Of a stretch of DNA of 46,760 bases, positions 7,543 to 46,636 are shown one piece after another; position 1 is the stretch's first letter; each line of letters starts with the position of its first letter. The DNA lies in NCBI GenBank assembly GCA_902790495.1, contig CADASK010000031.1, positions 1 through 46,760 of the forward strand, in the 5' to 3' direction. Source of the DNA: an uncultured Eubacteriales bacterium (GTDB lineage Bacteria; Bacillota; Clostridia; Christensenellales; Aristaeellaceae). Position numbers and translations under genes: made by a program. The notes under the pieces were generated by a model, which was not told the DNA's origin, did no database searches, and worked only from the letters and a program-made list of their open reading frames with translations.

Positions 7543-7608
7543 GGGCGAAGGTTTGCAAAGGGCGATCGCAAAGCACTTTGCCCGCGCCCTCACGCGCGGA
7601 ACCCTTCG
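7543..7608 (+). repeat. Double-hairpin repeat, copy 1
   Basis: This copy lies between the flippase start and the end of trkH. It begins GGGCGAAGG, then stem 1 GCAAAGGGC / GCACTTTGC (one mismatch) around the constant loop GATCGCAAA, then stem 2 CCGCGC / GCGCGG, and ends GGAACCC. It is the only copy with a mismatch in stem 1. Confidence 0.85.
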
Positions 7609-7637
7609 TTGCCTGAAACATCAGTACAAGGAAAAGA

Positions 7638-9092
7638 TCAGGCCTTGTGCCACAGAGACGGATGGAAGAGCACCAGGATGGGATACAGCTCCAGCCTGCC
7701 GGCCAGCATCAGCAGGCTCAGCACCAGCTTGGAGAAGGGGCTGAATCCGGCGAAGTTGCCCACGGGGCCGACCACCTCGCCGAAGCCGGGGCCCACGTTG
7801 CTCACGCAGGTCAGGGCGGCGGTGAAGTTGGTCAGCAGATCGTACTGCCCGCCGAGGGAGACCAGCAGCCCGCCGATGAGCACCAGCAGCACATAGAGAA
7901 AGGCAAAGAGGGTCACGCGGTGGAGCATGTTCTCGTCCACGCCCTTGCCCTCGAAGCGGACGACCTGCATCTTGCGGGGCTGGAAGGTGCTGGCGATCTC
8001 GCGCTTGCCCTGCTTGAACAGCAGCGCCACACGCACGACCTTCATGCCGCCGGCGGTGGAGCCCGCGCAGGAGCCGACGAACATCAGCACCAGCAGCACG
8101 GCCTTCACCGCGATCGGCCAGAGGTTGAAATCGGTGGTGGCAAATCCCGTGGTGGAGACGATGGTCGCCACCTGGAACGCGCCGTAGCGCAGCGCGGTGC
8201 TGAAGCTGCCGTAGACCGGCAGCAGGCACAGCGAGCAGATGAGGATGGCGCCGCCGCTCATGCCCAGGTACCACTTCAGCTCCTCCGAGCGGAAGAAATC
8301 CTTCGCGCTGCCGGTGAACAGGCTGTAGAACAGGGCCAGGTTGACGCCGAAGAGCAGCATGTAGACGGTGATGACGACCTCGATGGCAGGGGAATGGAAG
8401 GCGGCGATGGATGCGCCGTAGTTGCTGAAGCCGCCCGTGCCCGCGGTGCCGAAGGTGTGGATGGCCGCGTCATAGGGGGACATGCCGAAGACCATCAGCA
8501 GTACGAACATGCTGGCCGACATGGCGGCATAGACCCGGTAGAGGATCTTGGCGGTGTCGCCCATCTTGGGCGCAATCTTGCTCAGGCTGGGACCTGGGCT
8601 CTCGGCGCGCACCAGGTGGGAGGTACGGCCGGTCAGCTTGGGCAGCACGGCCAGGGTGAGCACCAGCACGCCCATGCCGCCGACCCAGTGGGTGAAGGAG
8701 CGCCAGAAAGTGCAGCCGTGGGGGAGGTGGTCGAAATCCGCCACCACGGTGGAGCCGGTGGTCGTGAAGCCGGACACGGCCTCGAAGAAGGCGTCGACAT
8801 AGCTCGGCAGCATGCCGCTGAAGACGAAGGGCAGCGCCCCAAACAGGCTCATGAGCACCCAGGAGAGGCCCACCACCGCAAAGCCCTCCCGCGCGCGCAG
8901 GTCGGTGTGCTTCGGCTTGGCCAGCAGGCGCATCGGCAGGCCGGCGGCCAGCACGATGAGCATGGAGTAGAGCATGGCGGCGGCGTCGCCCGGGTCGCGG
9001 TAGATGAGGGCGACCACCAGGGAGGGCGCCATGCAGGCGGCCTCCACCAGCAGGATGGCGCCCAGCAGGCGAATGACTTGTCGTTTATTCAT
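7638..9092 (-). CDS. trkH: Potassium uptake protein TrkH/KtrB family, membrane subunit
   Basis: The protein has 484 residues. It is a K+ translocating subunit with four M1-P-M2 repeats. The four selectivity-filter segments are visible: VSGFTTTGST (about residue 105), TFGTAGTGGFSN (about 215), IVSTTGFATTDFN (about 310) and CVSNVGPGFGEV (about 430). The length is typical of TrkH (about 480) and longer than KtrB (about 440-450). The start overlaps the stop of trkA by 4 bases, so the pore and its regulatory ring are made together. It acts in the cytoplasmic membrane and is normally gated by TrkA bound to nucleotides. Confidence 0.95.
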   Translation of the reverse strand: MNKRQVIRLLGAILLVEAACMAPSLVVALIYRDPGDAAAMLYSMLIVLAAGLPMRLLAKPKHTDLRAREGFAVVGLSWVLMSLFGALPFVFSGMLPSYVDAFFEAVSGFTTTGSTVVADFDHLPHGCTFWRSFTHWVGGMGVLVLTLAVLPKLTGRTSHLVRAESPGPSLSKIAPKMGDTAKILYRVYAAMSASMFVLLMVFGMSPYDAAIHTFGTAGTGGFSNYGASIAAFHSPAIEVVITVYMLLFGVNLALFYSLFTGSAKDFFRSEELKWYLGMSGGAILICSLCLLPVYGSFSTALRYGAFQVATIVSTTGFATTDFNLWPIAVKAVLLVLMFVGSCAGSTAGGMKVVRVALLFKQGKREIASTFQPRKMQVVRFEGKGVDENMLHRVTLFAFLYVLLVLIGGLLVSLGGQYDLLTNFTAALTCVSNVGPGFGEVVGPVGNFAGFSPFSKLVLSLLMLAGRLELYPILVLFHPSLWHKA

Positions 9093-10453
9093 CGGCTGAT
9101 GACCTCGTTCAAATCCCGCAGTCCGCGCTCCTTGGCGATGACGACCACGCTGTCACCGGCCTCGATGTGATCGTTGCCGAAGGGCACGATCACCTTGCCG
9201 CGCCGCGCGATGACGGCGATCAGCGTGTTCTTGCGCATGGTCAGATCCTTGAGCGGGATGCCGATGTAGGAGTCCGTGAGGCGGGCCTCGAACTCCAGGG
9301 CCTCCGCCGCGCCGCCCAGCAGGCGGTAGAGCTTCTCGACCTTCGCGCCGTCGGCGTTGACGCGGGCGCGGACGTAGCGCAGCAGGGTTGCGCCGGTGAT
9401 GTGGCGCGGGCTGACCACGCTGTCCAGGCCCAGGGACTCGATGATGCTGGCGTAGGTGATGCGGTTGTTCTTCACCACCACCTTGGGCACGCCATGGCGC
9501 TCGGCGAACAGGCCGGTCATCAGGTTCTCCTCGTCCCGGTCGCACAGGGCGATGAAGGCGTCGGTGGTGGAGAGGCCCTCCTGCTCCAGCAGCTCCTGGT
9601 TGGTGCCGTCCCCGCAGATCACGTTGACCTGGGGCAGGTCCTCGCTCAGCTTGCGCGCCTTGGCCGGATTGATCTCGATGATGGTGACGCGGATGCCGGT
9701 GGGCACGATCAGCTTGGCCAGATAGTAGCTGATGCGGCCGCCGCCCAGAATCATCACGTCCTTGATGCGCAGGGTGTCGCGGCCCAGGTAGCGGAAGAAG
9801 CTGGTGACAGTCACCACATCGCCCGCGACGAAGACCCGGTCGCCGTCCTGCAGCACAAAGTCGCCGCTGGGGATCGTAACGTCGCCGCTGCGCTCCACCG
9901 CGGCGTACAGCACCCGGGGAAGGCCGGGGTGCTTGGAGGCGAGATCCTTCAGCGCCAGGCCATTCAGCCGGTCCTTGCTCTGCACGCGGAATTCGACCAT
10001 CTCCACCAGACCCTTGGCGAAGGGCTCGATGTTGCTGGCGAAGGGATAGCGGAGCAGGCGGCTGATCTCCTGGGCGGTGGCGCGCTCGGGGTTGATGGCC
10101 ATGTCGATGCCCAGCTCGCGCTGCAGCAGGGTCAGGCTCTCGTTGTACTGCGGGTCGCGGATGCGGGCGATGGCGTACTTCGCGCCAAGGCGCTTGCCCA
10201 TCAGGCACACGAGCATGTTCACCTCGTCGCCCGCCGTGGCGGCGATCAGGATGTCCGTGTGATCCACGCCCGCGTCGATCAGCGTCTTCGCGTTCGCGCC
10301 ATTGCCGTGGACGCACATGACGTCCAGCCTGTCCTCACACTCGCGCAGAATCTCCTCGTTCTGGTCGATGATGGTGACATCGTATTCTTCGCTGCTCAGA
10401 TGCTCGGCAAGCGTTCGTCCGACCTTGCCAGCGCCGATCACCATGATGCGCAT
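9089..10453 (-). CDS. trkA: Trk system potassium uptake regulatory protein TrkA
   Basis: The protein has 454 residues and two RCK modules in tandem, as in TrkA proper (KtrA has one). The first begins MRIMVIGAGKVGRTLAEHLS with the GxGxxG nucleotide loop and the acidic end of strand 2 (IIDQNEE). The second begins at about residue 230 with VMILGGGRISYYLAKLI and EINPAKA. TrkA_C domains follow each (about 140-220 and 375-450; GIPLKDLTMRKNTLIAVI). It forms the cytosolic gating ring on TrkH and binds NAD(H) or ATP/ADP. GGAGG and AAGGAA precede the ATG. A promoter is visible at 10502-10529. Confidence 0.95.
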   Translation of the reverse strand: MRIMVIGAGKVGRTLAEHLSSEEYDVTIIDQNEEILRECEDRLDVMCVHGNGANAKTLIDAGVDHTDILIAATAGDEVNMLVCLMGKRLGAKYAIARIRDPQYNESLTLLQRELGIDMAINPERATAQEISRLLRYPFASNIEPFAKGLVEMVEFRVQSKDRLNGLALKDLASKHPGLPRVLYAAVERSGDVTIPSGDFVLQDGDRVFVAGDVVTVTSFFRYLGRDTLRIKDVMILGGGRISYYLAKLIVPTGIRVTIIEINPAKARKLSEDLPQVNVICGDGTNQELLEQEGLSTTDAFIALCDRDEENLMTGLFAERHGVPKVVVKNNRITYASIIESLGLDSVVSPRHITGATLLRYVRARVNADGAKVEKLYRLLGGAAEALEFEARLTDSYIGIPLKDLTMRKNTLIAVIARRGKVIVPFGNDHIEAGDSVVVIAKERGLRDLNEVISR

Positions 10454-10501
10454 GTTTCCTTAAAGCCTCCGAATAATGGAATCGGGACAATATCCCAAGA
10501 T

Positions 10502-10529
10502 ATTGTATCATAGAACCGGTGATTTGCAA
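10502..10529 (-). promoter_or_regulatory. Sigma-A promoter of trkA-trkH
   Basis: Read on the minus strand: -35 TTGCAA (10529-10524), a 16-nt spacer, -10 TACAAT (10507-10502). It lies about 50 bases upstream of the trkA start, in the divergent gap shared with the PHP gene. Confidence 0.65.
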
Positions 10530-10572
10530 GCGCGGCGCGGGAAATAATCCGCTCCATCCGGCGGGAAAGCGC

Positions 10573-10601
10573 TTGCCAAGCCGCCCGCGCTTCGCTATAC
10601 T
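10573..10601 (+). promoter_or_regulatory. Sigma-A promoter of the PHP gene
   Basis: -35 TTGCCA (10573-10578), a 17-nt spacer, -10 TATACT (10596-10601). It is placed about 60 bases before the GTG start of the PHP phosphoesterase. Confidence 0.7.
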
Positions 10602-10663
10602 GTTACACTGCCGGACGCGCTCCGGCACACAGCACAAAGCATCGACAGAGAGGAACAGAAACC

Positions 10664-11452
10664 GTGAAATACATCTACGAGACCCACCTGCACACCAACG
10701 AGAGCAGTGTCTGCGGCAAAACGCCCGCGCGGGACTACGTGCCCTACTACCAGGATCAGGGCTTTGCCGGCATCGTGGTGACCGACCACTTCTGCGGCAA
10801 CCCGAGCTACACGGCGGATCGCTCGGCGCCCTGGAAGGACCAGATGGACGCCTACTGCCGCGGCTACGAGGAGGCCCTGGACGAGGGCATCCGCCGGGGC
10901 TTTCCGGTCTTTTTCGGCATTGAGCAGAAGTTTGACGACGACGAGTGCCTGATCTACGGCCCGGATAAAGCCTGGCTGGTGGCGCATCCGGACATCCCCA
11001 CCTGGGGCAGAAAACGGCTGATGCAGGAGGTGGAGGCCATCGGCGGCGCCGTGGTGCTGGCCCATCCCTTCCGCGTGCGGGACTATGTGGACACCATCTA
11101 CCTCAACACCTGCGTGCACGCGGTGGAGGCCTTCAACCGTGGCAACCGGCCGCAGGACGACATCTACGGCAGGGCCTACGCGCGCTACACGGGTCTGCCC
11201 ATGACGGCGGGATCGGACATGCATCTGATTGAGCCTGAGAAGGCGCTGTTCGGAGTCGTGTTCGACGAGCCCTGGGAAGACGTGTTCAGCTACGCGAGGG
11301 CGATCCGGGAGGGGAAGCCCTTCGGCGTGCAGGTGGCGGAGGGGCGCGGCGTCGGCGAGCCGCTGCCGCTGGAGAGACCGTATCTGTACTTGAATGATGA
11401 TGAACAGCCGGTGGCGTGGGATGTGAATCAGATCTTTCGGCAGAAGGGCTGA
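10664..11452 (+). CDS. PHP-domain phosphoesterase-like protein
   Basis: The protein has 262 residues. It starts with GTG at 10664 after AGAGAGGAACAG. The PHP metal-binding motifs are present: ETHLHTNES (residues 6-14, the HxH pair), VVTDHFCG, FFGIEQKF (the Glu of motif II), VLAHPFRVRD and AGSDMHL. These residues bind up to three metal ions and hydrolyse phosphoester bonds; relatives include histidinol phosphatase and the PHP part of DNA polymerase III. The substrate cannot be told from sequence. It stands alone on the plus strand behind its own promoter, divergent from trkA, and ends beside repeat copy 2. Confidence 0.85.
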   Translation: MKYIYETHLHTNESSVCGKTPARDYVPYYQDQGFAGIVVTDHFCGNPSYTADRSAPWKDQMDAYCRGYEEALDEGIRRGFPVFFGIEQKFDDDECLIYGPDKAWLVAHPDIPTWGRKRLMQEVEAIGGAVVLAHPFRVRDYVDTIYLNTCVHAVEAFNRGNRPQDDIYGRAYARYTGLPMTAGSDMHLIEPEKALFGVVFDEPWEDVFSYARAIREGKPFGVQVAEGRGVGEPLPLERPYLYLNDDEQPVAWDVNQIFRQKG

Positions 11453-11473
11453 AACCCTTTCGGCTTGCAGGGA

Positions 11474-11532
11474 TTCCGCGCCTGCGGGCGCGGCCAAAGG
11501 GCTTTCCGATCGCCCTTTGGAAACCTTCGGGC
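11474..11532 (-). repeat. Double-hairpin repeat, copy 2 (inverted)
   Basis: This copy is in reverse orientation, 20 bases after the PHP stop. Read on the minus strand: CGAAGG, stem 1 CCAAAGGGC / GCCCTTTGG, loop GATCGGAAA (one base different from the usual GATCGCAAA), stem 2 CCGCGCC / GGCGCGG with loop CGCA, then GGAATCC. Confidence 0.85.
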
Positions 11533-11571
11533 AGCAATCCTTTTTACGTTATTCTTATAGAAAATCATCAA

Positions 11572-11613
11572 AAAAGCCAATCTCCTTGCAAACATGCGTG
11601 GAGATTGGCTTTT
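11572..11613. terminator. Bidirectional intrinsic terminator
   Basis: AAAAGCCAATCTCC (11572-11585) pairs over 14 bp with GGAGATTGGCTTTT (11600-11613) around a 14-nt loop. It serves the epimerase (-), whose stop is 10 bases away, and can also stop PHP (+) transcripts. Confidence 0.85.
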
Positions 11614-11622
11614 GTGATGGGA

Positions 11623-12639
11623 TCAGCACAGGCTCTGCTTCAGGCTCTCCATGCCGGCGATGACACGGTCGCACCAGGCGTCGAACTCGGGGTCCTCCAC
11701 TTGGCACTCGGGGTGGGCGAGGACATAGTTCAGCGCGATGCGCACGCCCTCGTGGAAGGGCACGTGGGTGGTCATCTGGGGGACCAGGCTCTTCAGCTTC
11801 GCGTTGTCGAAGATGACGGTGTTGGACTTGTCGCCGATGAGGGAGCCGGTGTAGTCGTACTCTGGGCCGACGTCGGCGAGGAAGGCGGAGGCCACATAGT
11901 AGGGGTGGAGGGTCACGCCCAGGGCGTCGGCAATGGTCTCATAGATCTGGTTCCAGGTCAGCGATTCGTCGGAGGTGATCTGGAAGGCCTCGCCGATGGC
12001 GTGCCTGTTGCCCATCAGCCCGGTGTAGCCGATGGCGAAATCTGTGTTGAAGGTCAGCGTCCAGAGGCTCGTGCCATCGCCCTGGATGATGACGGGCTTG
12101 CCCTCCATCATGCGCTTGATGACCTGCCAGAAGCCCTTCTTGCCGTGGACGCCCAGCGGGATGTGCCGCTCGTCGTAGGTGTGGGAGGGGCGCACGATGG
12201 TCACCGGGAAGCCCTCTTCCCGGTAGCAGCGCATCAGGTAATCCTCGCAGGCGATCTTGTTCCGGGAATACTGCCAGTAGGGGTTGGCCAGGGTGGTGCC
12301 CTCGGTGATGAAGGGACTCCGCACGGGCTTGTGGTAGGCGGAGGCCGAGCTGATGTAAATGTACTGGCCGGTGCGGCCCCGGAACAGGCGGACGTCCCGC
12401 TCGACCTGGGGCACGGTGAATCCGATGAATTCGCACACGCAGTCGAAGGACTGGCCCTCGATGGCGGCGAGGACTGCGGCCTCGTCGTTGATGTCCGCCA
12501 CGATGCTGTGGATGCCCTCGGGCAGCTCGGCATTGCGGCTGCCGCGGTTGAGCAGGAAAACCTCCCAGCCGTCCTTCACCAGCTTTTTGGTGATCGCCAT
12601 GCTGATCTGACCCGTTCCGCCGATCAATAACGCCTTCAT
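11623..12639 (-). CDS. NAD-dependent epimerase/dehydratase (extended SDR)
   Basis: The protein has 338 residues. The start at 12639 has GGAGG 8 nt upstream. It is a Rossmann-fold SDR: MKALLIGGTGQISMAITKKL carries a GGTGxxS/G-type dinucleotide loop, VADINDE is the acidic stretch after strand 3, ISSASAYHK holds the catalytic Ser, and WQYSRNKIACE holds the Tyr-x-x-x-Lys pair. VTIVRPSHTYDERHIP is the region after the active site typical of extended SDRs such as sugar-nucleotide epimerases and reductases. The substrate is unknown. It is monocistronic, with a promoter at 12714-12742 and a strong terminator. It is divergent from an aldo/keto reductase, which may act on related sugars (inference). 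Confidence 0.85.
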   Translation of the reverse strand: MKALLIGGTGQISMAITKKLVKDGWEVFLLNRGSRNAELPEGIHSIVADINDEAAVLAAIEGQSFDCVCEFIGFTVPQVERDVRLFRGRTGQYIYISSASAYHKPVRSPFITEGTTLANPYWQYSRNKIACEDYLMRCYREEGFPVTIVRPSHTYDERHIPLGVHGKKGFWQVIKRMMEGKPVIIQGDGTSLWTLTFNTDFAIGYTGLMGNRHAIGEAFQITSDESLTWNQIYETIADALGVTLHPYYVASAFLADVGPEYDYTGSLIGDKSNTVIFDNAKLKSLVPQMTTHVPFHEGVRIALNYVLAHPECQVEDPEFDAWCDRVIAGMESLKQSLC

Positions 12640-12713
12640 GGAATACGCCTCCGTTCGTTTTCTGTCCGGGACGCGCCGCTGTCCGGCGCGCGCTCCCGCT
12701 TGCTTCTGGCACC

Positions 12714-12742
12714 ATTGTACCATGCGGAGAAAAGGCTGTCCA
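12714..12742 (-). promoter_or_regulatory. Sigma-A promoter of the epimerase gene
   Basis: On the minus strand: -35 TGGACA (12742-12737), a 17-nt spacer, -10 TACAAT (12719-12714), about 75 bases upstream of the start codon. An inverted repeat CCGCA/TGCGG lies just upstream (about 12756-12770) and might be an operator shared with the divergent gene; that is a guess. Confidence 0.65.
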
Positions 12743-12851
12743 CAGGAAAAATCGTACTCCGCACAGTATGCGGCAGGCAGGAAAAGCGACCGCGCCATCG
12801 AACCTGTTAAGCAGGTGTTTTCACGATTCATCCATCAAGGAGTGTGTTTCT

Positions 12852-13994
12852 ATGAATCTTCGCAGACTGGGCAAGACGGGGCTGATGGTGAGCGAGGTGG
12901 GCTTCGGCGGCGAGTGGCTGGAGCGGCACCCGGAGGAGGATTCGGTGCGGCTGATCCGCTACGCCCACAGCCGGGGCATCAACATCATCGACTGCTGGAT
13001 GCCCGATCCCAAATCCCGGGACATCATCGGCAAAGCCATCGCGGACTGCCGCTCCGAGTGGTATGTCCAAGGGCACATCGGCTCCACCTGGCAGAACGGG
13101 CAGTACGTGCGCAGCCGCGACATGGCCTTCGTCAAGCCGGCCTTCGAGGATCTGCTGGCGCGCATCGGCGGCAGCTACATCGACCTGGGCATGATCCACT
13201 ACATCGATTCCATGGAGGAGTGGGACACCTGCATGCACGGCCCGTACATCGACTATGTGCGCGACCTGCACGCCCGGGGCGTCATCCGCCACATCGGCCT
13301 GAGCACCCACAACCCGCGCATCGCCAAACTGGCGGCGGAGTCCGGCTTCATCGAGATGATCCTGTTCAGCCTCAATCCGGCCTTCGACATGAAGCCGGCC
13401 AGCGAGGAGCTGGAGACCATGTTCAAGGACTACGACGAGGGACTCAGCGGCATCAACCCCGAGCGCGCGGAGCTGTACCGCCTGTGCGAGACCCGGGACG
13501 TGGGCATCACGGTGATGAAGGGCTTCTTCGGAGGGGCCCTGCTGGACGCCGATCGCTCGCCCTTCGATGTGGCCTTCACGCCGGTGCAGCTGATCCACTA
13601 CGCGCTGACGCGGCCCGCCGTCTGCTCCATCCTCTGTGGCTACGACACGGAGGAGCAGGTGGATCAGGCGGTGGCCTATGAGACCGCCACGGCGGACGAG
13701 CGGGATTACGCCTCGGTGATCGCCAACGCGCCGCTGCACGCCTATCGCGGCCAGTGCACCTACTGCGGCCACTGCCAGCCCTGCCCGATGGAGATCGACA
13801 TCGCGATGGTCAACAAGTTCTATGACCTGGCCATCCAGCAGCCGGAGACGCCGGAAAGTCTGCGCGCCCACTACACGGCGCTTGAGAAGACCGCCTCCGC
13901 CTGCATCGGCTGCCAGAGCTGCGAGGCGCGCTGCCCCTTCGGCGTGGAGATTGCGGCACGGATGCGGAAGGCAGCTGAGCTTTTCGGCTGCTGA
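12852..13994 (+). CDS. Aldo/keto reductase with C-terminal ferredoxin-like 4Fe-4S domain
   Basis: The protein has 380 residues. ATG 12852 follows AAGGAG by 8 nt. Residues 1-295 form the AKR TIM barrel: LRRLGKTGLMVSEVGFGGEW at the N-terminus, YIDLGMIHYIDS and IRHIGLSTHNP in the core. The usual catalytic Tyr position after the Asp (D-x4-Y) reads DCWMPDPKS, so the canonical tetrad looks altered. The C-terminus holds two Cys clusters, CTYCGHCQPCP (about residues 300-310) and CIGCQSCEARCPF (about 356-368), matching a two-cluster 4Fe-4S domain. This AKR-ferredoxin form is common in anaerobes; the reaction is unknown and electrons may come from ferredoxin. A Card1-like nuclease starts 18 bases downstream. 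Confidence 0.88.
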   Translation: MNLRRLGKTGLMVSEVGFGGEWLERHPEEDSVRLIRYAHSRGINIIDCWMPDPKSRDIIGKAIADCRSEWYVQGHIGSTWQNGQYVRSRDMAFVKPAFEDLLARIGGSYIDLGMIHYIDSMEEWDTCMHGPYIDYVRDLHARGVIRHIGLSTHNPRIAKLAAESGFIEMILFSLNPAFDMKPASEELETMFKDYDEGLSGINPERAELYRLCETRDVGITVMKGFFGGALLDADRSPFDVAFTPVQLIHYALTRPAVCSILCGYDTEEQVDQAVAYETATADERDYASVIANAPLHAYRGQCTYCGHCQPCPMEIDIAMVNKFYDLAIQQPETPESLRAHYTALEKTASACIGCQSCEARCPFGVEIAARMRKAAELFGC

Positions 13995-14012
13995 CGGAAA
14001 GGAACACCCGCC

Positions 14013-15161: not shown

Positions 15162-15173
15162 CGGCCTGATTCT

Positions 15174-15296
15174 GCGAAGGTTTCCAAAGGGTTCGGAGCG
15201 CCCGGAAAACTCCATGTTATGGAGTTTTCAGCGGAGAACGGGCGGCAGCCCCGGACCGATCGCAAAGCCCTTTGGTCGCCGCCGAAGGCGGCGAAA
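15174..15296 (+). repeat. Double-hairpin repeat, copy 3 (long form with 65-nt insert)
   Basis: GCGAAGG, stem 1 CCAAAGGG / CCCTTTGG, stem 2 CGCCGCC / GGCGGCG around GAA. Between the left arm (ending 15191) and the constant CGATCGCAAAG (from 15257) lies a 65-nt insert (15192-15256) that is identical to the one in copy 4. The insert contains its own 11-bp hairpin (15205-15215 with 15219-15229) inside a CGCCCG / CGGGCG pair. It starts 12 bases after the nuclease stop. Confidence 0.85.
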
Positions 15297-15349
15297 TTGG
15301 ACAATGAACCGTTCATGTGTGTAATACGCGTGAGCGGTTTTCGTTTGGC

Positions 15350-15388
15350 AAAACGAAAAGCCCGGGAAGGCTTTGAACCTTCCCGGGC
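15350..15388 (-). terminator. Intrinsic terminator of the PFOR gene
   Basis: On the minus strand an 11-bp stem GCCCGGGAAGG / CCTTCCCGGGC (15388-15378 with 15370-15360) and a 7-nt loop is followed by TTTTCGTTTT. It lies 14 bases after the PFOR stop. A weaker hairpin, AACCG / CGGTT (about 15307-15340), followed by TTTTCG on the plus strand may stop nuclease transcripts. Confidence 0.8.
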
Positions 15389-15402
15389 GGGAAACCAGGG
15401 GA

Positions 15403-19237: not shown

Positions 19238-19347
19238 GCGAAGGGGTGCAGGGGGTTCGGAGCGCCCGGAAAACTCCATGTTATGGAGTTTTCAGCGGAG
19301 AACGGGCGGCAGCCCCGGACCGATCGCAAAGCCCCCTGCCCGCGCGA
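19238..19347 (+). repeat. Double-hairpin repeat, copy 4 (long form, second hairpin lost)
   Basis: GCGAAGG, then stem 1 TGCAGGGGG / CCCCCTGC with the same 65-nt insert (19256-19320) as copy 3. After stem 1 the sequence reads CCGCGCGAG and the second hairpin is broken. Together with copy 3 it forms directly oriented repeats on both sides of nifJ. The rest of the 487-base gap (18937-19423) holds the nifJ leader and promoter and the terminator of the nucleotidase. Confidence 0.85.
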
Positions 19348-26428: not shown

Positions 26429-26486
26429 GCGAAGGGGTGCAGGGGGCGATCGCAAAGCCCCCTGCCCGCGCCCGCAGGCGCGGAAT
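26429..26486 (+). repeat. Double-hairpin repeat, copy 5
   Basis: GCGAAGG, stem 1 TGCAGGGGGC / GCCCCCTGC around GATCGCAAA, stem 2 CCGCGCC / GGCGCGG around CGCA, ending GGAATC. It lies 62 bases after the esterase stop. Confidence 0.9.
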
Positions 26487-27572: not shown

Positions 27573-27629
27573 GGCGAAGGGGTCCCGGGGGCGATCGCAA
27601 AGCCCCCGGGTCGGCCCGCAGGCCGAAAG
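27573..27629 (+). repeat. Double-hairpin repeat, copy 6
   Basis: GGCGAAGG, stem 1 CCCGGGGGC / GCCCCCGGG around GATCGCAAA, stem 2 CGGCC / GGCCG around CGCA, ending GAAAGCC. Both stems differ from the other copies and are perfectly paired. It is one of two copies in the 314-base gap 27516-27829, which holds no gene. Confidence 0.9.
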
Positions 27630-27730: not shown

Positions 27731-27788
27731 GTTCCGCGCCTGCAGGCGCGGGTCCAGGGGCTTTGCGGTCGCCCCTGACAACCCTTCG
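27731..27788 (-). repeat. Double-hairpin repeat, copy 7 (inverted)
   Basis: Read on the minus strand: GCGAAGGG, stem 1 TCAGGGGC / GCCCCTGG (one G-T pair), loop GACCGCAAA (one base different), stem 2 CCGCGCC / GGCGCGG around TGCA, then GGAACC. It lies 42 bases after the methyltransferase stop. Confidence 0.85.
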
Positions 27789-27829
27789 CGCACCTGCTTT
27801 GTTACGGAGAAGTAATCTGGAAAAGATAC

Positions 27830-29045: not shown

Positions 29046-29106
29046 GGGCGAAGGTTTCCAAAGGGCGATCGCAAAGCCCTTTGGTCGCCGCCCGCAGGCG
29101 GCGAAA
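29046..29106 (+). repeat. Double-hairpin repeat, copy 8
   Basis: GGGCGAAGG, stem 1 CCAAAGGGC / GCCCTTTGG around GATCGCAAA, stem 2 CGCCGCC / GGCGGCG around CGCA, ending GAAATCC. It fills the gap between the methyltransferase start and the HAD stop (29121). Confidence 0.9.
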
Positions 29107-36060: not shown

Positions 36061-36119
36061 GGGCGAAGGGGTGCAGGGGGCGATCGCAAAGCCCCCTGCC
36101 CGCGCCCGCAGGCGCGGAA
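36061..36119 (+). repeat. Double-hairpin repeat, copy 9
   Basis: GGGCGAAGG, stem 1 TGCAGGGGGC / GCCCCCTGC around GATCGCAAA, stem 2 CCGCGCC / GGCGCGG around CGCA, ending GGAATAC. It lies between two converging terminators. It is nearly identical to copy 5. Confidence 0.9.
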
Positions 36120-36178: not shown

Positions 36179-36196
36179 CACCCGGAAAAACCAGAT

Positions 36197-39844: not shown

Positions 39845-39883
39845 GTGCGCTCCTTCTGGAATGATACTTCATGAAGTGAGGAC

Positions 39884-39940
39884 GCGAAGGTTTGCAAAGG
39901 GCGATCGCAAAGCCCTTTGCCCGCGCCTGCAGGCGCGGAA
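39884..39940 (+). repeat. Double-hairpin repeat, copy 10
   Basis: GCGAAGG, stem 1 GCAAAGGGC / GCCCTTTGC around GATCGCAAA, stem 2 CCGCGCC / GGCGCGG around TGCA, ending GGAACCCC. It is the first of two copies in the gap between binding-protein and permease genes (39845-40171, no gene). Confidence 0.9.
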
Positions 39941-39962
39941 CCCCTGCAGCTGAAATATGACA

Positions 39963-40003
39963 AGGACACACCTGCTGTGCATCAGATGGAAGCAGGTGTG
40001 TCC
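39963..40003. terminator. Long hairpin between binding-protein and permease genes (possible attenuator)
   Basis: GGACACACCTGCT (39964-39976) pairs with AGCAGGTGTGTCC (39991-40003) over 13 bp. The minus-strand tail is TTGTCATATTT, a weak U-run, so partial termination or mRNA-end stabilisation is more likely than full stop. Confidence 0.5.
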
Positions 40004-40046
40004 GTTTCAAACCTTTCTCAAGAAGCCATCATACTTGAAAGACGGC

Positions 40047-40104
40047 GGGCGAAGGGTTGTCAGGGGCGATCGCAAAGCCCCTGACCCGCGCCCGCAGGCG
40101 CGGA
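40047..40104 (+). repeat. Double-hairpin repeat, copy 11
   Basis: GGGCGAAGG, stem 1 TCAGGGGC / GCCCCTGA around GATCGCAAA, stem 2 CCGCGCC / GGCGCGG around CGCA, ending GGAACCCC. It lies 67 bases after the binding-protein stop. Confidence 0.9.
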
Positions 40105-40171
40105 ACCCCTTGCTGCCAAGCAGGATTTCTACCTGAGAAAAGCATCAGCCGAGCGATGAAGCCGGCCAGGC

Positions 40172-40981: not shown

Positions 40982-41000
40982 GGGAATCCTCCTTCAGAAA

Positions 41001-41037
41001 ATAAAACAGATGAGCGGCCTGTGTGCGCCGTTCATCT
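41001..41037 (-). terminator. Riboswitch-controlled terminator upstream of the binding-protein gene
   Basis: On the minus strand AGATGA-A-CGGC (41037-41027) pairs with GCCG-C-TCATCT (41018-41008) and is followed by GTTTTATTTTC. It is placed between the lysine aptamer and the start codon, as in transcription-attenuation L-boxes. Confidence 0.8.
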
Positions 41038-41073
41038 CATCGGATCCGCCATTGAAGGAGGGGATCGAAGCCC

Positions 41074-41239
41074 GAATAGCGCTCCATGGCCTGTGCCATG
41101 ACAGTCAGGCGGATCTTCTCCGTCTGCCCAACACGCGGTTCTGCCGGAACCTGCGCATTTCGGCGGCTTCCCCTTCTCACTCCGCTCAACGTCCCGGCTG
41201 GACTCCCGGAGCTACCTCATGTCGGCCGCGCCTCTATTC
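41074..41239 (-). ncRNA. Lysine riboswitch (L-box) aptamer
   Basis: On the minus strand the order of conserved blocks is that of the L-box: P1 GAATAG (41239-41234) closing with CTATTC (41079-41074); ATAGAGGCGCG and then GAGGTA early; GAGAAGGGGAAGCCGCCGAA in the middle; GACTGTCATGGC and GGAGCGCTATTC at the end. These correspond to ATAGAGGTGCG, AAGGGGAGCGTCGCCGAAG, GGCTGTCA and TGGAGGGCTAT of Bacillus lysC. The length of 166 nt fits. When lysine binds, the terminator at 41001-41037 should form and reduce expression of the downstream uptake gene. The stretch 41300-41520 beyond the promoter holds no gene that I can see. Confidence 0.9.
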
Positions 41240-41266
41240 CATCCGCGGTTGGCGGATGTTGCAGTA

Positions 41267-41295
41267 AACATACAACACGCAGGGCTGATTGTCAA
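41267..41295 (-). promoter_or_regulatory. Sigma-A promoter of the lysine riboswitch / ABC transporter
   Basis: On the minus strand: -35 TTGACA (41295-41290), a 17-nt spacer, -10 TATGTT (41272-41267). The predicted start near 41260 places the aptamer about 20 nt into the transcript. Confidence 0.78.
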
Positions 41296-41526
41296 TACAT
41301 AAAATGGCAGTCCGGAGGATTTTTGTATCTCCGGGCCGCCAGTGAAGAAAAAAAGGAAACGTGTGCTGTGCCGCAGGACCGGCACCGGACAGCCGGAGGA
41401 GAGCGCGCGGGAGCGCAATATCCGATCAATTCACTCGGTTTTATACAATAAATGGGAAGTAAAGGCCAGATCAACCATGTGGCTGATGAATGATGATTAG
41501 CGCGGTCTAACTTTCGGCCGTTTCCC

Positions 41527-41555
41527 TTGACAGCCCATATTTCATCTTATATAAT
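41527..41555 (+). promoter_or_regulatory. Perfect consensus sigma-A promoter of the hydrogenase operon
   Basis: TTGACA (41527-41532), a 17-nt spacer, TATAAT (41550-41555), all bases consensus, about 60 bases before the first start codon. Confidence 0.88.
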
Positions 41556-41559
41556 GCGC

Positions 41560-41577
41560 ATGTTAGAAATTAAACAA
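41560..41577 (+). promoter_or_regulatory. Candidate Rex operator at the hydrogenase promoter
   Basis: The 18-mer ATGTTAGAAATTAAACAA resembles the Rex site TTGTTAA-N4-TTAACAA, matching TGTTA on the left and T-AACAA on the right. It lies directly after the -10, where a bound repressor would block initiation. Rex senses NADH/NAD+, and hydrogenase genes are known targets in clostridia. Confidence 0.5.
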
Positions 41578-41615
41578 TCCTTTGGTGTTTAATCAAAAGG
41601 AGGTACATGTGACCC

Positions 41616-42092
41616 ATGAGTGAAATGGACAGCAAGTTTGCGGAACTCCATCAGATCATCGAGGCCCACAAGGATTGGCCCGGTGCCCTGATGCCCGTGC
41701 TGCAGGCCGCGCAGGAGATTTTCGGCTGCGTCTCTGAGGACGTGCAGAAGGTGATCGCGGAGGGCCTCGGCGTCACGCTGAGCGAGGTGTACGGCGTTGC
41801 GACCTTCTACGCGCAGTTCTCCCTGCAGCCCAAGGGCGAGTATGTCATCAGCGTCTGCCTCGGCACCGCGTGCTACGTCAAGGGCAGCCAGGCCGTGCTG
41901 GATAAGCTGAGCGAGGTGCTCGACACGCCTGTGGGCAGCACCACGCCCGACGGCAAGTTCACCCTCCAGGCGACCCGCTGCCTCGGCGCCTGCGGCCTCG
42001 CGCCTGTCATGACGATCAATGGCGACGTCTATGGCCGTCTGACCCCCGACCAGGTGCCCGCCATCATCGAGAAGTACCGCACTCCCGCCTGA
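41616..42092 (+). CDS. hydC: NADH-dependent [FeFe] hydrogenase subunit C (HndA/NuoE-like)
   Basis: The protein has 158 residues. ATG 41616 is 12 nt after AGGAGG; an in-frame ATG at 41625 is a less likely alternative. It is a thioredoxin-like [2Fe-2S] protein with ligands Cys81, Cys86 (VCLGTACYVKG) and Cys122, Cys126 (RCLGACGLAPV). The helical N-terminal part has VLQAAQEIFGCVSEDVQKVI and LSEVYGVATFYAQF as in NuoE. It passes electrons between the flavin subunit HydB and the rest of the complex. It is the first gene of the hydrogenase operon, behind a perfect promoter. Confidence 0.95.
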   Translation: MSEMDSKFAELHQIIEAHKDWPGALMPVLQAAQEIFGCVSEDVQKVIAEGLGVTLSEVYGVATFYAQFSLQPKGEYVISVCLGTACYVKGSQAVLDKLSEVLDTPVGSTTPDGKFTLQATRCLGACGLAPVMTINGDVYGRLTPDQVPAIIEKYRTPA

Positions 42093-42108
42093 GCGGATTG
42101 AACGGCGT

Positions 42109-42900
42109 ATGAAAGAAATCGCACTGCATTTGCTGGATATCGTGCAGAACAGCGTCCGCGCGGGTGCGTCCCACGTGGATATCTCCTTCATCCTGGGGGA
42201 GGATCGCGTGCTGGCCATGACCGTGAAGGACGACGGCTGCGGCATGTCGCCGGAGCTGCTGGAGCGGGTGAGAAGCCCCTTCACCACCACGCGCACGACC
42301 CGCAAGGTCGGCCTGGGCATTCCGCTCCTGCAGCAGAACGCCATGCTGACCGGCGGCGAGGTGACGCTGGAGAGCGAGGTGGGCCGGGGCACCGTGATCA
42401 CGGCGACCTTCCACACGGACTCCATCGACTGCCTGCCGCTGGGCGATCTGGCCTCTACGATGGCCTCCATCGTGATGGGCAGCCCGGACAGGCCGGAGTT
42501 CAGCCTCACGTGCAAGAGCCCGTCGGGGGAGATGAGCTTCTCCACCGAGGAGATCCGCGTGGTGCTGGGGCAGGAGGTCTCCCTGGCGGAGCCGGAGGTC
42601 GTGCAGTGGATGCAGGCGTCTTTACAGGAAGCCTGCGGTATCGCCGCCGGCGCGCGTCCCGTGATGCTCGCCTTTGTGGATGAAATCAATAAGCGCCAGC
42701 TGAACCACGTGACCGTCAGCCAGACCGGCTGCATCGGCATGTGCCGTCTGGAGCCCATGGTGGATGTGATCACCCCCGGCAAGGAGAAGGTCACCTATGT
42801 GCATGTGAAGCCTGAGATGGTGCCGCGCATTGTGGCTGAGCACATCGTCAACGGCCGTCCCGTGGCGGAATACACCATCGGCGCGGCTGAGAAAGAATGA
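42109..42900 (+). CDS. HATPase ATP-binding domain fused to an HndB-like [2Fe-2S] domain
   Basis: The protein has 263 residues. Residues 1-100 form a GHKL ATP-binding domain: LLDIVQNSVRAGASHVDISF (N-box), VKDDGCGMSPELL (G1), TRTTRKVGLGIPLLQQNAML (G2) and GRGTVITATFH. Residues 101-173 match the usual tail of these small ATPases (STEEIRVVLGQEVSLAEPEV). From residue 174 the chain becomes the HndB-type domain: EACGIAAGARPVMLAF, TVSQTGCIGMCRLEP (Cys208, Cys212), EKVTYVHVKPEMV, VNGRPVAEYTIG. In related operons these are two genes, and HndB has about 35 more N-terminal residues including its first strand. This is therefore a fusion with loss of that piece, or a sequence error. Confidence 0.82.
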   Translation: MKEIALHLLDIVQNSVRAGASHVDISFILGEDRVLAMTVKDDGCGMSPELLERVRSPFTTTRTTRKVGLGIPLLQQNAMLTGGEVTLESEVGRGTVITATFHTDSIDCLPLGDLASTMASIVMGSPDRPEFSLTCKSPSGEMSFSTEEIRVVLGQEVSLAEPEVVQWMQASLQEACGIAAGARPVMLAFVDEINKRQLNHVTVSQTGCIGMCRLEPMVDVITPGKEKVTYVHVKPEMVPRIVAEHIVNGRPVAEYTIGAAEKE

Positions 42901-42917
42901 TCGGAGGAAGCAGCAGC

Positions 42918-44717
42918 ATGGATATCTACCGCGCTCATGTACTGGTCTGCGGCGGCACGGGTTGTTCTTCGTCCGGCTCCGCGACCCTGATCGACCGCTT
43001 CAACGAGAAGCTGGCCGAGAACAATCTGGATAAGGAAGTCAAGGTCATCCGCACCGGCTGCTTCGGCCTGTGCGAGGCCGGCCCCGTGGTTATCGTCTAT
43101 CCCGACGGCACCTTCTACAGCCACGTGAAGCCGGACGACGTGGACGAGATCGTCACCGAGCATCTGCTCAAGGGCCGCAAGGTCGAGCACCTGGTGTATG
43201 TGGATCACTCCACCCACGAGCAGGATGCCGAGAAGAGCCTGGACGAGATCAACTTCTATAAGCATCAGCACCGCATCGCGCTGCGCAACTGCGGCGTGAT
43301 CGATCCGGAGAACATCGACGAGTACCTCGCCATGGACGGCTACAAGGCTCTGGAAAAGGCCCTGACCACCATGACCCGCGAGGAGGTCATCGACGAGATC
43401 CTGAAGTCCGGCCTGCGCGGCCGCGGCGGCGGCGGCTTCCCCACCGGCCTGAAGTGGAAGTTCACCTATCAGAGCCAGGCGGATCAGAAGTACGTGGCCT
43501 GCAACGCGGACGAGGGCGACCCCGGCGCGTTCATGGACCGCTCCATCCTGGAGGGCGACCCCCACGCCATCATCGAGGCCATGGCCATCGCCGGCTACGC
43601 CATCGGCGCGAGCCAGGGCTACATCTACGTCCGCGCGGAGTACCCCATCGCGGTCAAGCGCCTGTCCATCGCCATCGATCAGGCCCGCGAGTACGGCCTG
43701 CTGGGCAAGAACATCTTCGAGACCGGCTTTGACTTCGACCTGAACATCCGCCTGGGCGCCGGCGCCTTCGTCTGCGGCGAGGAGACCGCCCTGATGCACT
43801 CCATCGAGGGCAAGCGCGGCGAGCCCACCGCCCGTCCGCCGTTCCCGGCCGTGAAGGGCCTGTTCGAGAAGCCCACCATGCTCAACAACGTGGAGACCTA
43901 CGCCAACGTGGCGCAGATCATCCTCCACGGCGCTGACTGGTTCGCCTCCATGGGCACCGAGAAGTCCAAGGGCACCAAGGTCTTCGCCCTGGGCGGCAAG
44001 ATCAACAACACCGGTCTGGTGGAGATCCCCATGGGCACGCCCCTGCGCACCATCATCTATGATATCGGCGGCGGCTGCCCCAACGGCAAGAAGTTCAAGG
44101 CCGTGCAGACCGGTGGTCCCTCCGGCGGCTGCCTGCCCGAGTCCCTGCTGGACACCCCCGTGGACTATGACAACCTGATCGCGGCGGGCTCCATGATGGG
44201 CTCCGGCGGCATGATCGTCATGGACGAGGACAACTGCATGGTGGATATCGCCCGGTTCTACCTCGACTTCATCGTCGACGAGAGCTGCGGCAAGTGCGCG
44301 CCCTGCCGCATCGGCACCAAGCGCATGAAGGAGATCCTCGACCGCATCGTGGAAGGCAAGGGCGAGGAAGGCGACATCGAGAAGCTGGAGGAGCTGGCGC
44401 AGACCATCAAGTCCACCGCCCTGTGCGGCTTGGGCCAGACCGCGCCCAACCCCGTGCTCTCTACGCTGAAGTTCTTCCGCGACGAGTACGAGGCGCACAT
44501 CAAGGAAAAGCGCTGCCCCGCGCATCACTGCAAGTCGCTGCTGCAGTACAAGATCGATCCCGAGAAGTGCCGCGGCTGCACGGCCTGCGCGCGTGTCTGC
44601 CCGGCGGAGGCCATCACCGGCACGGTGAAGCAGCCGCACGTGATCGATGTCAAGAAGTGCCTGAAGTGCGGCTCCTGCATGGAGAAGTGCCGCTTCGGCG
44701 CCATCAGCCGCGAGTAA
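42918..44717 (+). CDS. hydB: [FeFe] hydrogenase subunit B (HndC/NuoF-like flavin subunit)
   Basis: The protein has 599 residues. ATG 42918 follows GGAGGAAG; a start at 42897 would overlap the previous stop. Domains: an N-terminal thioredoxin-like [2Fe-2S] domain (Cys11, Cys16, Cys48, Cys52), a NuoF core with the FMN loop GLRGRGGGGFPTGLKW (165-180) and NADH region LGAGAFVCGEETALMHSIEG, an SLBB-type segment, the 4Fe-4S motif ESCGKCAPCRIGT (Cys457/460/463 and Cys503), and a C-terminal two-cluster ferredoxin domain (Cys551/554/557/561 and 581/584/587/591). It oxidises NADH and, in bifurcating enzymes, couples this to ferredoxin oxidation for H2 formation. It is followed 15 bases later by hydA. 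Confidence 0.97.
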   Translation: MDIYRAHVLVCGGTGCSSSGSATLIDRFNEKLAENNLDKEVKVIRTGCFGLCEAGPVVIVYPDGTFYSHVKPDDVDEIVTEHLLKGRKVEHLVYVDHSTHEQDAEKSLDEINFYKHQHRIALRNCGVIDPENIDEYLAMDGYKALEKALTTMTREEVIDEILKSGLRGRGGGGFPTGLKWKFTYQSQADQKYVACNADEGDPGAFMDRSILEGDPHAIIEAMAIAGYAIGASQGYIYVRAEYPIAVKRLSIAIDQAREYGLLGKNIFETGFDFDLNIRLGAGAFVCGEETALMHSIEGKRGEPTARPPFPAVKGLFEKPTMLNNVETYANVAQIILHGADWFASMGTEKSKGTKVFALGGKINNTGLVEIPMGTPLRTIIYDIGGGCPNGKKFKAVQTGGPSGGCLPESLLDTPVDYDNLIAAGSMMGSGGMIVMDEDNCMVDIARFYLDFIVDESCGKCAPCRIGTKRMKEILDRIVEGKGEEGDIEKLEELAQTIKSTALCGLGQTAPNPVLSTLKFFRDEYEAHIKEKRCPAHHCKSLLQYKIDPEKCRGCTACARVCPAEAITGTVKQPHVIDVKKCLKCGSCMEKCRFGAISRE

Positions 44718-44732
44718 GAGGAGGACATTCAG

Positions 44733-46481
44733 ATGGAAAACATGATCGCCTTAACCATTGACGGCGTTTCCGTCGAAGTGCCCGCCGGTACTTCGGTGTT
44801 GGAAGCGGCGCGCAAGGCCGGCATTCATATCCCGACCCTGTGCTACCTGAAGGATATCAACGAGATCGGCGCCTGCCGCATGTGTGTGGTGGATGCCGGC
44901 GGCCGCAACCTGCAGGCTGCCTGCGTGCTGCCCGCCGCCAACGGCATGGTCGTGAAGACCAACACCCCCGCCATCAAGCAGTACCGCAAGGTGCTGCTGG
45001 AGCTGGTGCTCTCCGCCCACGACAAGAAGTGCCTCTCCTGCGTGCGCAGCCAGAACTGCGAGCTGCAGAAGCTGTGCCGCGACCTGGGCGTGGAGGACGG
45101 CGACGCCTTCAAGGGCGCGACCAACGAGTACAAGGTGGACGACGTTTCGCCCTCCATCGTGCGCGACAACAACAAGTGCATCCTGTGCCGCCGCTGCGTG
45201 GCGGTCTGCAGCAAGATCCAGCACGTGGGCGTCATCGGCCCGGTGATGCGCGGCTTCAAGACCGCCATCGAGTCCCCGTGGCAGATGCACCTGAACGACA
45301 TGGCCTGCATCAACTGCGGCCAGTGCATCAACGTGTGCCCCGTGGGCGCGCTGCATGAGAAGGACGACACCGCGAAGGTGTGGGCGGCCCTGTCCGACCC
45401 GACCAAGCATGTGGTGGTGCAGCCGGCTCCCGCCGTGCGCGCGGCCCTGGGCGAGGAATTCGGCCTGCCCATGGGCACCTCCGTCACAGGCAAGATGGCG
45501 ACGGCCCTCAAGCGCCTCGGCTTCGACAAGGTGTTCGACACCGACTTCGGCGCCGACCTGACCATCATGGAGGAGGCCAACGAGCTGGTGGAGCGCATCG
45601 CCAGCGGCGGCACCCTGCCCATGATCACCTCCTGCTCTCCCGGCTGGATCAAGTTCTGCGAGACCTACTATCCGGACTTCCTGCCGAACCTCTCCAGCTG
45701 CAAGTCTCCCCACGAGATGCTGGGCGCCATGGCCAAGAGCTACTATGCCAAGAAGGCCGGCATCGATCCCAAGGACATCGTGACGGTCTCCGTCATGCCC
45801 TGCACCGCCAAGAAGTTCGAGGCCGCGCGCCCCGAGCTGGGTCATGACGGCTTGGCCGACGTGGACATCGTCATCACCACCCGTGAGCTGGCCCACATGA
45901 TCAAGGAAGCCGGTATCAACTTCAACCTCCTGCCCGACAGCGACTTCGACAGCCTGATGGGCGAGAGCACGGGCGCAGCCGTCATCTTCGGCGCTACCGG
46001 CGGCGTGATGGAGGCGGCTCTGCGCACCGCGTATGAGACCCTCACCGGCAGCGAGCTGAAGGACGTCAACTTCACCGCCGTGCGCGGCGTGGAGGGTATC
46101 AAGGAAGCGACCGTGCGCATCGGCGACACCGATGTGAACGTGGCCGTGGCCTCCAGCACCGGCATGGCCGCGAAGCTGCTGGACAGCGTCCGCGCGGGCG
46201 AGAAGAACTATGCCTTCATCGAGGTCATGGCCTGCCCCGGCGGCTGCGTCAACGGCGGCGGCCAGCCCATCGTGGATGCGGATACCCGCGCCGTGGTGGA
46301 TGTGCGCGCCGAGCGCGCCAAGGCCCTGTATGGCGAGGACATGAACAAGCCGCTGCGCAAGAGCCACGAGAACGCCGAGATCAAGGCGATCTACAGCGAC
46401 TTCCTGGGCAAGCCCGGCAGTCATGTGGCCCACGAGCTGCTGCACACCCACTACACCAAACGTCCGCTTTACAACAAGTAA
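44733..46481 (+). CDS. hydA: [FeFe] hydrogenase catalytic subunit A (HndD type)
   Basis: The protein has 582 residues. GAGGAGG is 8 nt before the ATG. Clusters in order: [2Fe-2S] (Cys37, 48, 51, 64), the His-ligated 4Fe-4S (His96, Cys100, 103, 109), two 4Fe-4S motifs (Cys149/152/155/159 and 192/195/198/202), then the H-cluster with L1 ITSCSPGWIKFCE (299-309), L2 VMPCTAKKFEA (355-364) and L3 EVMACPGGCVNGGGQP (497-512). A small-subunit-like C-terminal tail follows (HENAEIKAIYSDFLGKPGSH). L1 has Ser302 where many hydrogenases have a second Cys. It reduces protons to H2 in the cytosol with electrons from HydB and ferredoxin. The operon ends in a strong terminator. Confidence 0.98.
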   Translation: MENMIALTIDGVSVEVPAGTSVLEAARKAGIHIPTLCYLKDINEIGACRMCVVDAGGRNLQAACVLPAANGMVVKTNTPAIKQYRKVLLELVLSAHDKKCLSCVRSQNCELQKLCRDLGVEDGDAFKGATNEYKVDDVSPSIVRDNNKCILCRRCVAVCSKIQHVGVIGPVMRGFKTAIESPWQMHLNDMACINCGQCINVCPVGALHEKDDTAKVWAALSDPTKHVVVQPAPAVRAALGEEFGLPMGTSVTGKMATALKRLGFDKVFDTDFGADLTIMEEANELVERIASGGTLPMITSCSPGWIKFCETYYPDFLPNLSSCKSPHEMLGAMAKSYYAKKAGIDPKDIVTVSVMPCTAKKFEAARPELGHDGLADVDIVITTRELAHMIKEAGINFNLLPDSDFDSLMGESTGAAVIFGATGGVMEAALRTAYETLTGSELKDVNFTAVRGVEGIKEATVRIGDTDVNVAVASSTGMAAKLLDSVRAGEKNYAFIEVMACPGGCVNGGGQPIVDADTRAVVDVRAERAKALYGEDMNKPLRKSHENAEIKAIYSDFLGKPGSHVAHELLHTHYTKRPLYNK

Positions 46482-46495
46482 GGATTGAACCATTG

Positions 46496-46520
46496 CCCCT
46501 CCCAACCGGGAGGGGTTTTC
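46496..46520 (+). terminator. Intrinsic terminator of the hydrogenase operon
   Basis: CCCCTCCC (46496-46503) pairs with GGGAGGGG (46508-46515) around AACC, followed by TTTTC. It lies 14 bases after the hydA stop. Confidence 0.92.
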
Positions 46521-46570
46521 TGATGCGTATGAGCAAATATGGCAGACTGTTCTTTTCCATAGCACAAGGA

Positions 46571-46636
46571 TTCCGCGCCTGCGGGCACGGGCAAAGGGCT
46601 TTGCGATCGCCCTTTGCAAACCTTCGCCCTTCGCCC
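46571..46636 (-). repeat. Double-hairpin repeat, copy 12 (inverted)
   Basis: Read on the minus strand: GGGCGAAGGGCGAAGG (a doubled left end), stem 1 GCAAAGGGC / GCCCTTTGC around GATCGCAAA, stem 2 CCGTGCC / GGCGCGG (imperfect) around CGCA, then GGAATCC. It follows the hydrogenase terminator. The last 120 bases of the window contain no gene start that I can support. Confidence 0.88.

Follow-up and report, generated by a model that had tools for sequence, protein, structure and literature searches.

A stretch of 46,760 nucleotides from an uncultured Eubacteriales bacterium (contig CADASK010000031.1, positions 1 to 46,760; hereafter the window) carries copies of a short structured repeat. Small mobile elements of the same family, several hundred in number, occur in a gut bacterium and in its phages. 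The core of the element spans about 36-42 nt and consists of a 5' tag NCGA, a linker, a hairpin of 6-9 bp and a 9-nt loop; in short copies the order is GCGA (or CCGA), A, linker, purine arm, loop GANCGNAAA and pyrimidine arm, the linker having 3-7 letters and starting with G. Comparison of the natural variants showed, at the level of sequence, that the tag covaries with the loop and the linker with the purine arm. We therefore consider it probable that the family consists of non-autonomous mobile DNA elements, whose recognition structure would be single-stranded DNA (ssDNA) in a predicted class I triplex-pseudoknot fold.

A sequence-only reading of the window had described twelve double-hairpin repeats, and twelve matches to GGGCGATCGCAAA (up to 2 mismatches) were indeed present, compared to a mean of 2.1 and a maximum of 7 in the shuffled window. 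A covariance model recovered ten full short copies of 55-58 nt with 64-86 bits, and two long copies (15174-15295 and 19238-19339) were read directly from the sequence; the model recovered no more than the 3' part of the first (23 bits), left the second unmatched and gave a 9.9-bit chance match just downstream of it. The draft genome of the same bacterium (G000, hereafter the own genome; 2.47 Mb, 78 contigs, 94.5% complete) contains 229 exact copies of the 13-mer GGGCGATCGCAAA (115 and 114 by strand) and 326 exact matches to the core pattern CGAAGRN6-16GGCGANCGSAAAGCC, with 0 matches to either pattern when reversed, so that the family is not limited to a few copies. Detailed reading covered 437 kb of this genome (the window and 390 kb), where a pattern search found 59 short and 18 long copies, 76 of the 77 being clear of genes predicted by our own codon-usage gene finder, which was used for all gene contexts in place of curated annotation. 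In 16 of 28 distinct short types, selected by us, 38 double-sided stem changes were counted compared to 14.1 in shuffles, and 95.5% of cells were paired. The sequence-only reading was thus borne out in its picture of a REP-like family with many copies dispersed between genes and with compensatory changes in the stems; as an interpretation it was partly supported but incomplete, having missed both the helix between tag and loop and the linker as a third strand.

The core reads as an H-type pseudoknot, in which the 5' tag NCGA is predicted to pair with TCGN' of the loop. The GCGA tag occurs mostly with TCGC in the loop and the CCGA tag with TCGG, and the outer tag base and its loop base can pair in 156 of 163 unique core types (C-G 105, G-C 48, T-G 3; seven unpaired), compared to a mean of 90 and a maximum of 113 in 5,000 shuffles. 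All 54 profiled short copies have CGAAG after the first tag base, as found with a pattern that tolerated two tag mismatches, and weak conservation extends about 10 nt upstream and 5 nt downstream of these copies.

The letters of the linker follow those of the purine arm. Linker GGGGT is found with arm GCAGGGGGC, GGGTT with GCAAGGGGC, GGTTT with GCAAAGGGC, GGT with CCAGGGC, GAGT with CCAGAGGC, GGAGG or GGTGG with arms ending in GGAGGGC, and GGGGATT with CAAAGGGGGC. When the arm is read from the loop down, past its closing C and one G, linker G stands over arm G, and linker A or T over A. The run rule was counted on 107 of 117 unique linker-plus-arm strings, ten having been removed by our own filter (a nested tag, a stem shorter than 7, a closing base different from C, or a start other than GG or GA), and the G-run of the linker equals that of the arm minus 1 in 80 of the 107, compared to a mean of 29 and a maximum of 45 in 10,000 shuffles. 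The arm run ends in A in 61 of these 80 types, the corresponding linker letter being T in 40, A in 20 and C in 1, and opposite an A flanked by G the linker has A in 18, T in 8 and G in 3 cases (types common to several groups counted in each). By group, the rule is kept by 49/58 phage types (shuffle maximum 33), 51/70 types of other hosts (maximum 29) and 10/12 types of the own genome (maximum 9), with 19 of the phage types common to hosts. In this register, T or A standing over an A of the arm is not explained by Watson-Crick pairing, and the code (G*G-C, A*A-T, T*A-T), as read from the variants, is that of the antiparallel reverse-Hoogsteen purine motif. A pseudoknot of this topology would put the linker in the major groove, as a purine-motif third strand requires. 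Since the purine motif is reported, in a study of such repeats (PMC4666352), not to form in RNA, ssDNA is likely the acting form.

Several parts of the element are optional. In the own genome the pyrimidine arm is followed by a second hairpin, mostly with a CGCA loop, and by GAA, yet this stem 2 is missing in many copies from relatives and phages, and the double hairpin described at first is not the basic unit. Tandem copies joined directly in L127 and L238 show the pyrimidine arm to be the end of the core unit, to which stem 2 does not belong. Long copies have the same stem as short copies plus a 65-nt insert before the loop. Aligned over 22 equal-length forms out of 32 distinct ones, the five helices of the long form had 98.8% of cells paired and 89 double-sided changes compared to 33.5 in shuffles; the insert comprises a covarying hairpin and two mutually crossing helices, one of which covaries at two pairs, the other being nearly invariant. 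Stem 2 in hosts, the second pseudoknotted insert of the long form and the inverted pairs of some species would then be optional variants of one core unit.

Relatives carry copies as well: core matches were found in 39 of 200 genomes of the bacterial family, in 12 of 50 genera, with 0-405 copies per genome (highest in G010). A sample of the class gave matches in 2 of 391 genomes, namely the own genome and one with a single chance-like match. A scan of contig databases returned at least 115 stretches, 80 of them named and mostly from uncultured Clostridia, several from ruminants; among the matches listed, one is titled Christensenellaceae, and the Alphaproteobacteria and Planctomycetota rows look like chance coding matches. 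The core pattern also matched 90 viral stretches, some of which (such as L209, L229, L237 and L239) are probably chance matches. Comparison with PHROGs showed that five of six phage contigs encode head, portal, tail sheath, terminase or helicase proteins; two of ten phage proteins, including the single one from L204, were unmatched.

The placement of the copies bears on whether DNA or RNA is the acting form. The 75 classifiable copies of the own genome lie between co-directional genes (34 sense, 21 antisense), in convergent gaps (16) or in divergent gaps (4), the last being avoided (4/75 copies compared to 39/222 gaps, p=0.008); neither the convergent excess (p=0.20) nor the sense excess (p=0.10) was significant. 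One long-form copy (L026:10451-10551) lies within a predicted coding region. The 115 distinct phage copies comprise 12 that overlap gene calls, 19 at contig edges and 84 intergenic ones, and among the latter, related phages being counted separately, 62 are antisense, 21 sense and 1 divergent; in 35 of the 62 antisense copies the end of the pyrimidine arm is within 13 nt of the stop codon that precedes it in the mRNA sense. This antisense placement, together with the many copies in the own genome that lie some 20-60 nt past a stop codon, would suit an RNA acting from either strand as a structured element of the 3' untranslated region (an exonuclease block, an mRNA stabiliser or a protein site), and the opposite strand also folds as a hairpin and could form an equivalent pseudoknot by complementarity. 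We nevertheless find such an RNA function unlikely, because the code fits the purine motif on the sense strand, where it is the RNA form that is reported not to exist, because the commonest variant, if read from the opposite strand, would require a parallel motif with A over A-T, because both orientations occur in the own genome, and because Rfam matched none of the elements in the window above the gathering score. GC-rich hairpins located 3' of genes, with GATC in many loops, might also be intrinsic terminators, G-quadruplexes or methylation sites. That is scarcely credible here: a T-rich tail was found at 3 sense and 2 antisense of 77 copies, which does not exceed the 6.9% of the intergenic background, at least four GGG runs occur in 3 of 77 copies, and GATC is present in 76 of 163 core types.

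Mobility is indicated by copies in unrelated surroundings. The flanks of the four commonest identical copies are unrelated, with a mean identity of 0.17-0.35, and in two closer phage comparisons the element is present in one phage and absent from relatives whose neighbouring proteins are 95-99% identical. Comparison of the own genome with G005, its closest relative, shows clear absence of an element in places, with boundaries that are not resolvable. The junction 3' of the major head gene was filled in 1 of 48 loci (52 fetched), namely in the query's own contig, and the empty junctions mostly read stop codon, Shine-Dalgarno sequence, start codon. At L202:4151, L204:2607 and L224:3795 the flanks are 97-100% similar and the junction is the same, with different element types and different neighbouring letters. 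Such similar-flank phages with different types at one junction suggest that whole junction segments are exchanged as cassettes. As to duplication of the target site, 3 of 40 matched pairs scored at least 8 compared to 47 of 783 mismatched pairs, and two phage loci hint at a duplicated stop codon and Shine-Dalgarno sequence.

The same junctions allow a different account of the mobile part, in which tag, linker, purine arm and loop would form a natural purine clamp and capture a polypyrimidine strand as target. The target in phages would be the complement of the Shine-Dalgarno run by the stop codon, bound via Watson-Crick and reverse-Hoogsteen pairing, and the captured strand would become the pyrimidine arm of the element, in effect a triplex-guided, RNA-free insertion of DNA. 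The closeness of the pyrimidine arm to stop codons in the antisense phage copies speaks for it, as do the outer stem letters, which by eye follow the local stop codon, and a G-run at that place in the empty relatives of two filled junctions. With no general target duplication, and with host copies that have fixed arms at unrelated sites, we regard this account as improbable.

Some genomes contain copies in head-to-head pairs. Among adjacent pairs less than 170 nt apart, the head-to-head share is 7/10 in G019, 7/9 in JAFRPG, 2/7 in G035 and 1/7 in the own genome, these hosts having been picked after the pairs had been noticed. In the JAFRPG genome (L086, L101, L117, L121 and L156) the pairs have a common spacer, and several have complementary ends GGCCGTC...GACGGCC; it is possible that they represent a larger mobile unit of about 250 bp. 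Tandem arrays with a period of about 110 bp were seen near the ends of contigs G025:C15, G092:C47 and G092:C55 (L355, L357 and L358), which suggests that longer arrays have been collapsed there.

The head-to-head pairs, the high copy number and the extragenic, palindromic character 3' of genes would also be expected of a REP/BIME/REPIN family whose mobility depends on a RAYT (Y1) transposase, for which a gene in the genome had been proposed as a sign. A search of the own draft genome for the corresponding domain (PF01797) found none, and among 36 genomes of the family the domain occurs in 1 of the 9 element-rich ones (at least 30 model matches, own genome included), namely G006 (E 2.8e-8, over the cut-off), compared to 7 of the 27 others. 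RAYT thus does not track the elements, and with the tag NCGAAG in place of GTAG/CGTC, the likeness to REP does not extend to membership, which we judge very unlikely. A reverse transcriptase (PF00078) was not found in G000, G001, G002, G005, G006 or G010; it is present in G019 and in element-poor genomes, G025 and G035 being outside this search. A search for left and right halves of the element gave 448 right halves with a matching left half, 410 of them adjacent and 11 more than 100 nt apart; three wider pairs passed the filter as candidates for an autonomous copy with a gene between its halves, and none resembled matched ends by eye.

Known type III antitoxins are short H-type pseudoknots, and the elements might be copies or decoys of such RNAs, given a few tandem copies and the presence of ToxN (PF13958) in 3 of the 36 genomes, one of them element-rich (G002). 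This is most improbable, since ToxN was not found in the own draft genome, G001, G005, G010 or G019, most copies are single, dispersed and on both strands, and the code is that of a DNA motif.

The mechanism that we favour for the non-autonomous DNA elements can be outlined as follows. Running antiparallel to the purine arm, the linker would occupy the major groove of the hairpin as a reverse-Hoogsteen third strand, and a tag helix of 3-4 bp would stack on top and clamp the linker, giving a class I intrastrand purine-motif triplex in the form of an H-type pseudoknot. The folded form would be DNA that becomes single-stranded during replication, recombination or phage DNA metabolism, where some enzyme may recognise and copy it, or where the fold may stall replication and lead to template switching. 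Copies would persist where they are least harmful, mostly 3' of genes and away from divergent promoters.

Several observations weigh against this proposal. Covariation of tag and loop is carried by the outermost tag pair only, and 76 of 163 types retain the fourth one (A-T). With 3-7 letters the third strand is short, and the run rule fails in 27 of 107 types; without the run condition, the first non-G letter of the linker stands over A in 68 of 107 types (T 44, A 22, C 2), and in the same register over G in 14 and over a pyrimidine (C or T) in 25. Because the types are related by descent, the shuffles overstate significance, yet the three groups are concordant. Neither an autonomous copy nor an associated recombinase was found, target-site duplication was not general among the 40 loci, and the antisense excess in phages (62 compared to 21) could reflect a role of RNA from the opposite strand. 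Furthermore, for BoxC/PIT/TM_ECO, the best-studied intrastrand-triplex repeat, which is described as forming a triplex in vitro and as linked to genome instability (Holder et al. 2015, PMC4666352), the same paper reports that in vivo dimethyl sulphate footprinting of TM_ECO did not support a stable triplex.

Ten of the twelve elements in the window are short. On the forward strand, the copy at 7545-7601 comprises the core pseudoknot and stem 2 with one mismatch in stem 1 (GCAAAGGGC/GCACTTTGC), those at 26429-26485 and 36063-36119 are both of type GGGGT/GCAGGGGGC, and the remaining ones are of types GGGGT/CCCGGGGGC (27574-27627), GGTTT/CCAAAGGGC (29048-29105), GGTTT/GCAAAGGGC (39884-39940) and GGGTT/GTCAGGGGC (40049-40105). 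The reverse strand carries a variant with a CCGA/TCGG clamp and loop GATCGGAAA (11474-11530), a copy with loop GACCGCAAA and an inserted base in stem 1 (27732-27789) and a copy of type GGTTT/GCAAAGGGC (46571-46627). Both long elements are on the forward strand; in one (15174-15295) the 65-nt structured insert separates the 5' arm of stem 1 from the loop, and in the other (19238-19339) stem 2 is truncated. The loops at 11474 and 27732 contradict the earlier claim of an invariant loop, and stem 1, described as nearly always matched by its exact complement, is imperfectly paired at 7545 and 27732. The copy at 26429 illustrates the anatomy: tag GCGA (26429-26432), A (26433), third strand GGGGT (26434-26438), purine arm (26439-26447), loop GATCGCAAA (26448-26456), whose TCGC would pair with the tag, pyrimidine arm (26457-26465) and stem 2 (26466-26483), the pairings in this copy being inferred from the family-wide covariation counts. 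The tag GCGAAG is sometimes doubled just 5' of an element, as at 46571-46627 in the window, L018:16137 and L022:14337 (e.g. GCGAAGGGCGAAGG), perhaps as a trace of insertion beside an older copy. Away from the elements, Rfam identified a lysine riboswitch at 41069-41244 on the reverse strand (98 bits).

The case for selected intramolecular DNA triplexes in cells had rested, as presented in PMC4666352, on abundance and on folding in vitro. In the present family, about a hundred natural variants from hosts and phages have a third strand that changes along with its duplex, following the purine-motif code, and this covariation is evolutionary evidence that a triple-helix shape of DNA matters in living cells. 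The question of the triplex is now open to mutate-and-compensate testing, and the elements provide substrates with which to look for a protein that recognises such a triplex pseudoknot of DNA. They also point to a route by which REP-like elements without RAYT may be mobilised, and by which exchange at phage gene junctions perhaps takes place.

Compared to known systems, the topology is that of the H-type RNA pseudoknots of telomerase RNA and SAM-II, where loop 1 crosses the deep groove of stem 2. Those pseudoknots use parallel U*A-U Hoogsteen triples, whereas the third strand of the present family would be antiparallel to the purine strand, as in the purine motif of DNA. Apart from the lysine riboswitch, Rfam gave nothing above the gathering score in the window, and in five phage loci one chance-level overlap with PhotoRC-I on the opposite strand of the element (19.0 bits, gathering score 45, E 1.2). 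Synthetic polypurine reverse-Hoogsteen hairpins (PPRH) likewise place two mirror-symmetric purine stretches on one pyrimidine strand; as described in PMC5220335, they bind a target outside themselves, whereas here the pyrimidine strand belongs to the element.

With REP/BIME/REPIN sequences, as characterised in PMC3733652, the family has in common that it consists of high-copy extragenic palindromes, often 3' of genes and, in some hosts, apparently in inverted pairs with a shared spacer. It differs in its tag NCGAAG, which is not GTAG/CGTC, and in its lack of association with RAYT, and also in that its tag is predicted to pair with the loop and its linker letters track those of the stem.

The nearest likeness in kind is to BoxC/PIT/TM_ECO. 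Both consist of short GC-rich repeats dispersed between genes, follow the code G*GC, A*AT, T*AT and occur in either orientation, and in both the copy number differs widely between close strains (PMC4666352). TM_ECO is a class II (pyrimidine-purine-Hoogsteen) repeat of Proteobacteria with 9-nt stems and loops of 3-6 and 3 nt, and is reported there as unassociated with phages or transposons, whereas the present family occurs in phages and would be of class I with a pseudoknot clamp; the word pseudoknot is absent from that paper. The present family also has a shorter third strand, variable in sequence and length, and an optional second hairpin and insert, and is found in one Clostridia family plus phages. 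The TM_ECO consensus CCCTCNCCCN3-6GGGNGAGGGN3GGGNGAGGG had 0 matches in the 437 kb with up to 2 mismatches. The ITxF rule for class I in our own coding (stems 6-15, loops 1-6, at most 1 mismatch for stems of at least 7) fitted 0 of 59 short elements, and a relaxed rule (stem at least 4, loop 2 up to 12) fitted 24 of 59 compared to 31 of 2000 random windows; the intrastrand purine-motif code across three strands applies to the family, apart from the types that break the run rule. A search of the open-licence literature found no report of the present family. In conclusion, intrastrand-triplex DNA repeats are already known as a kind, and the novel features of the present family would be its class I design clamped by a pseudoknot, its covarying third strand, its presence in phages and its group of hosts.

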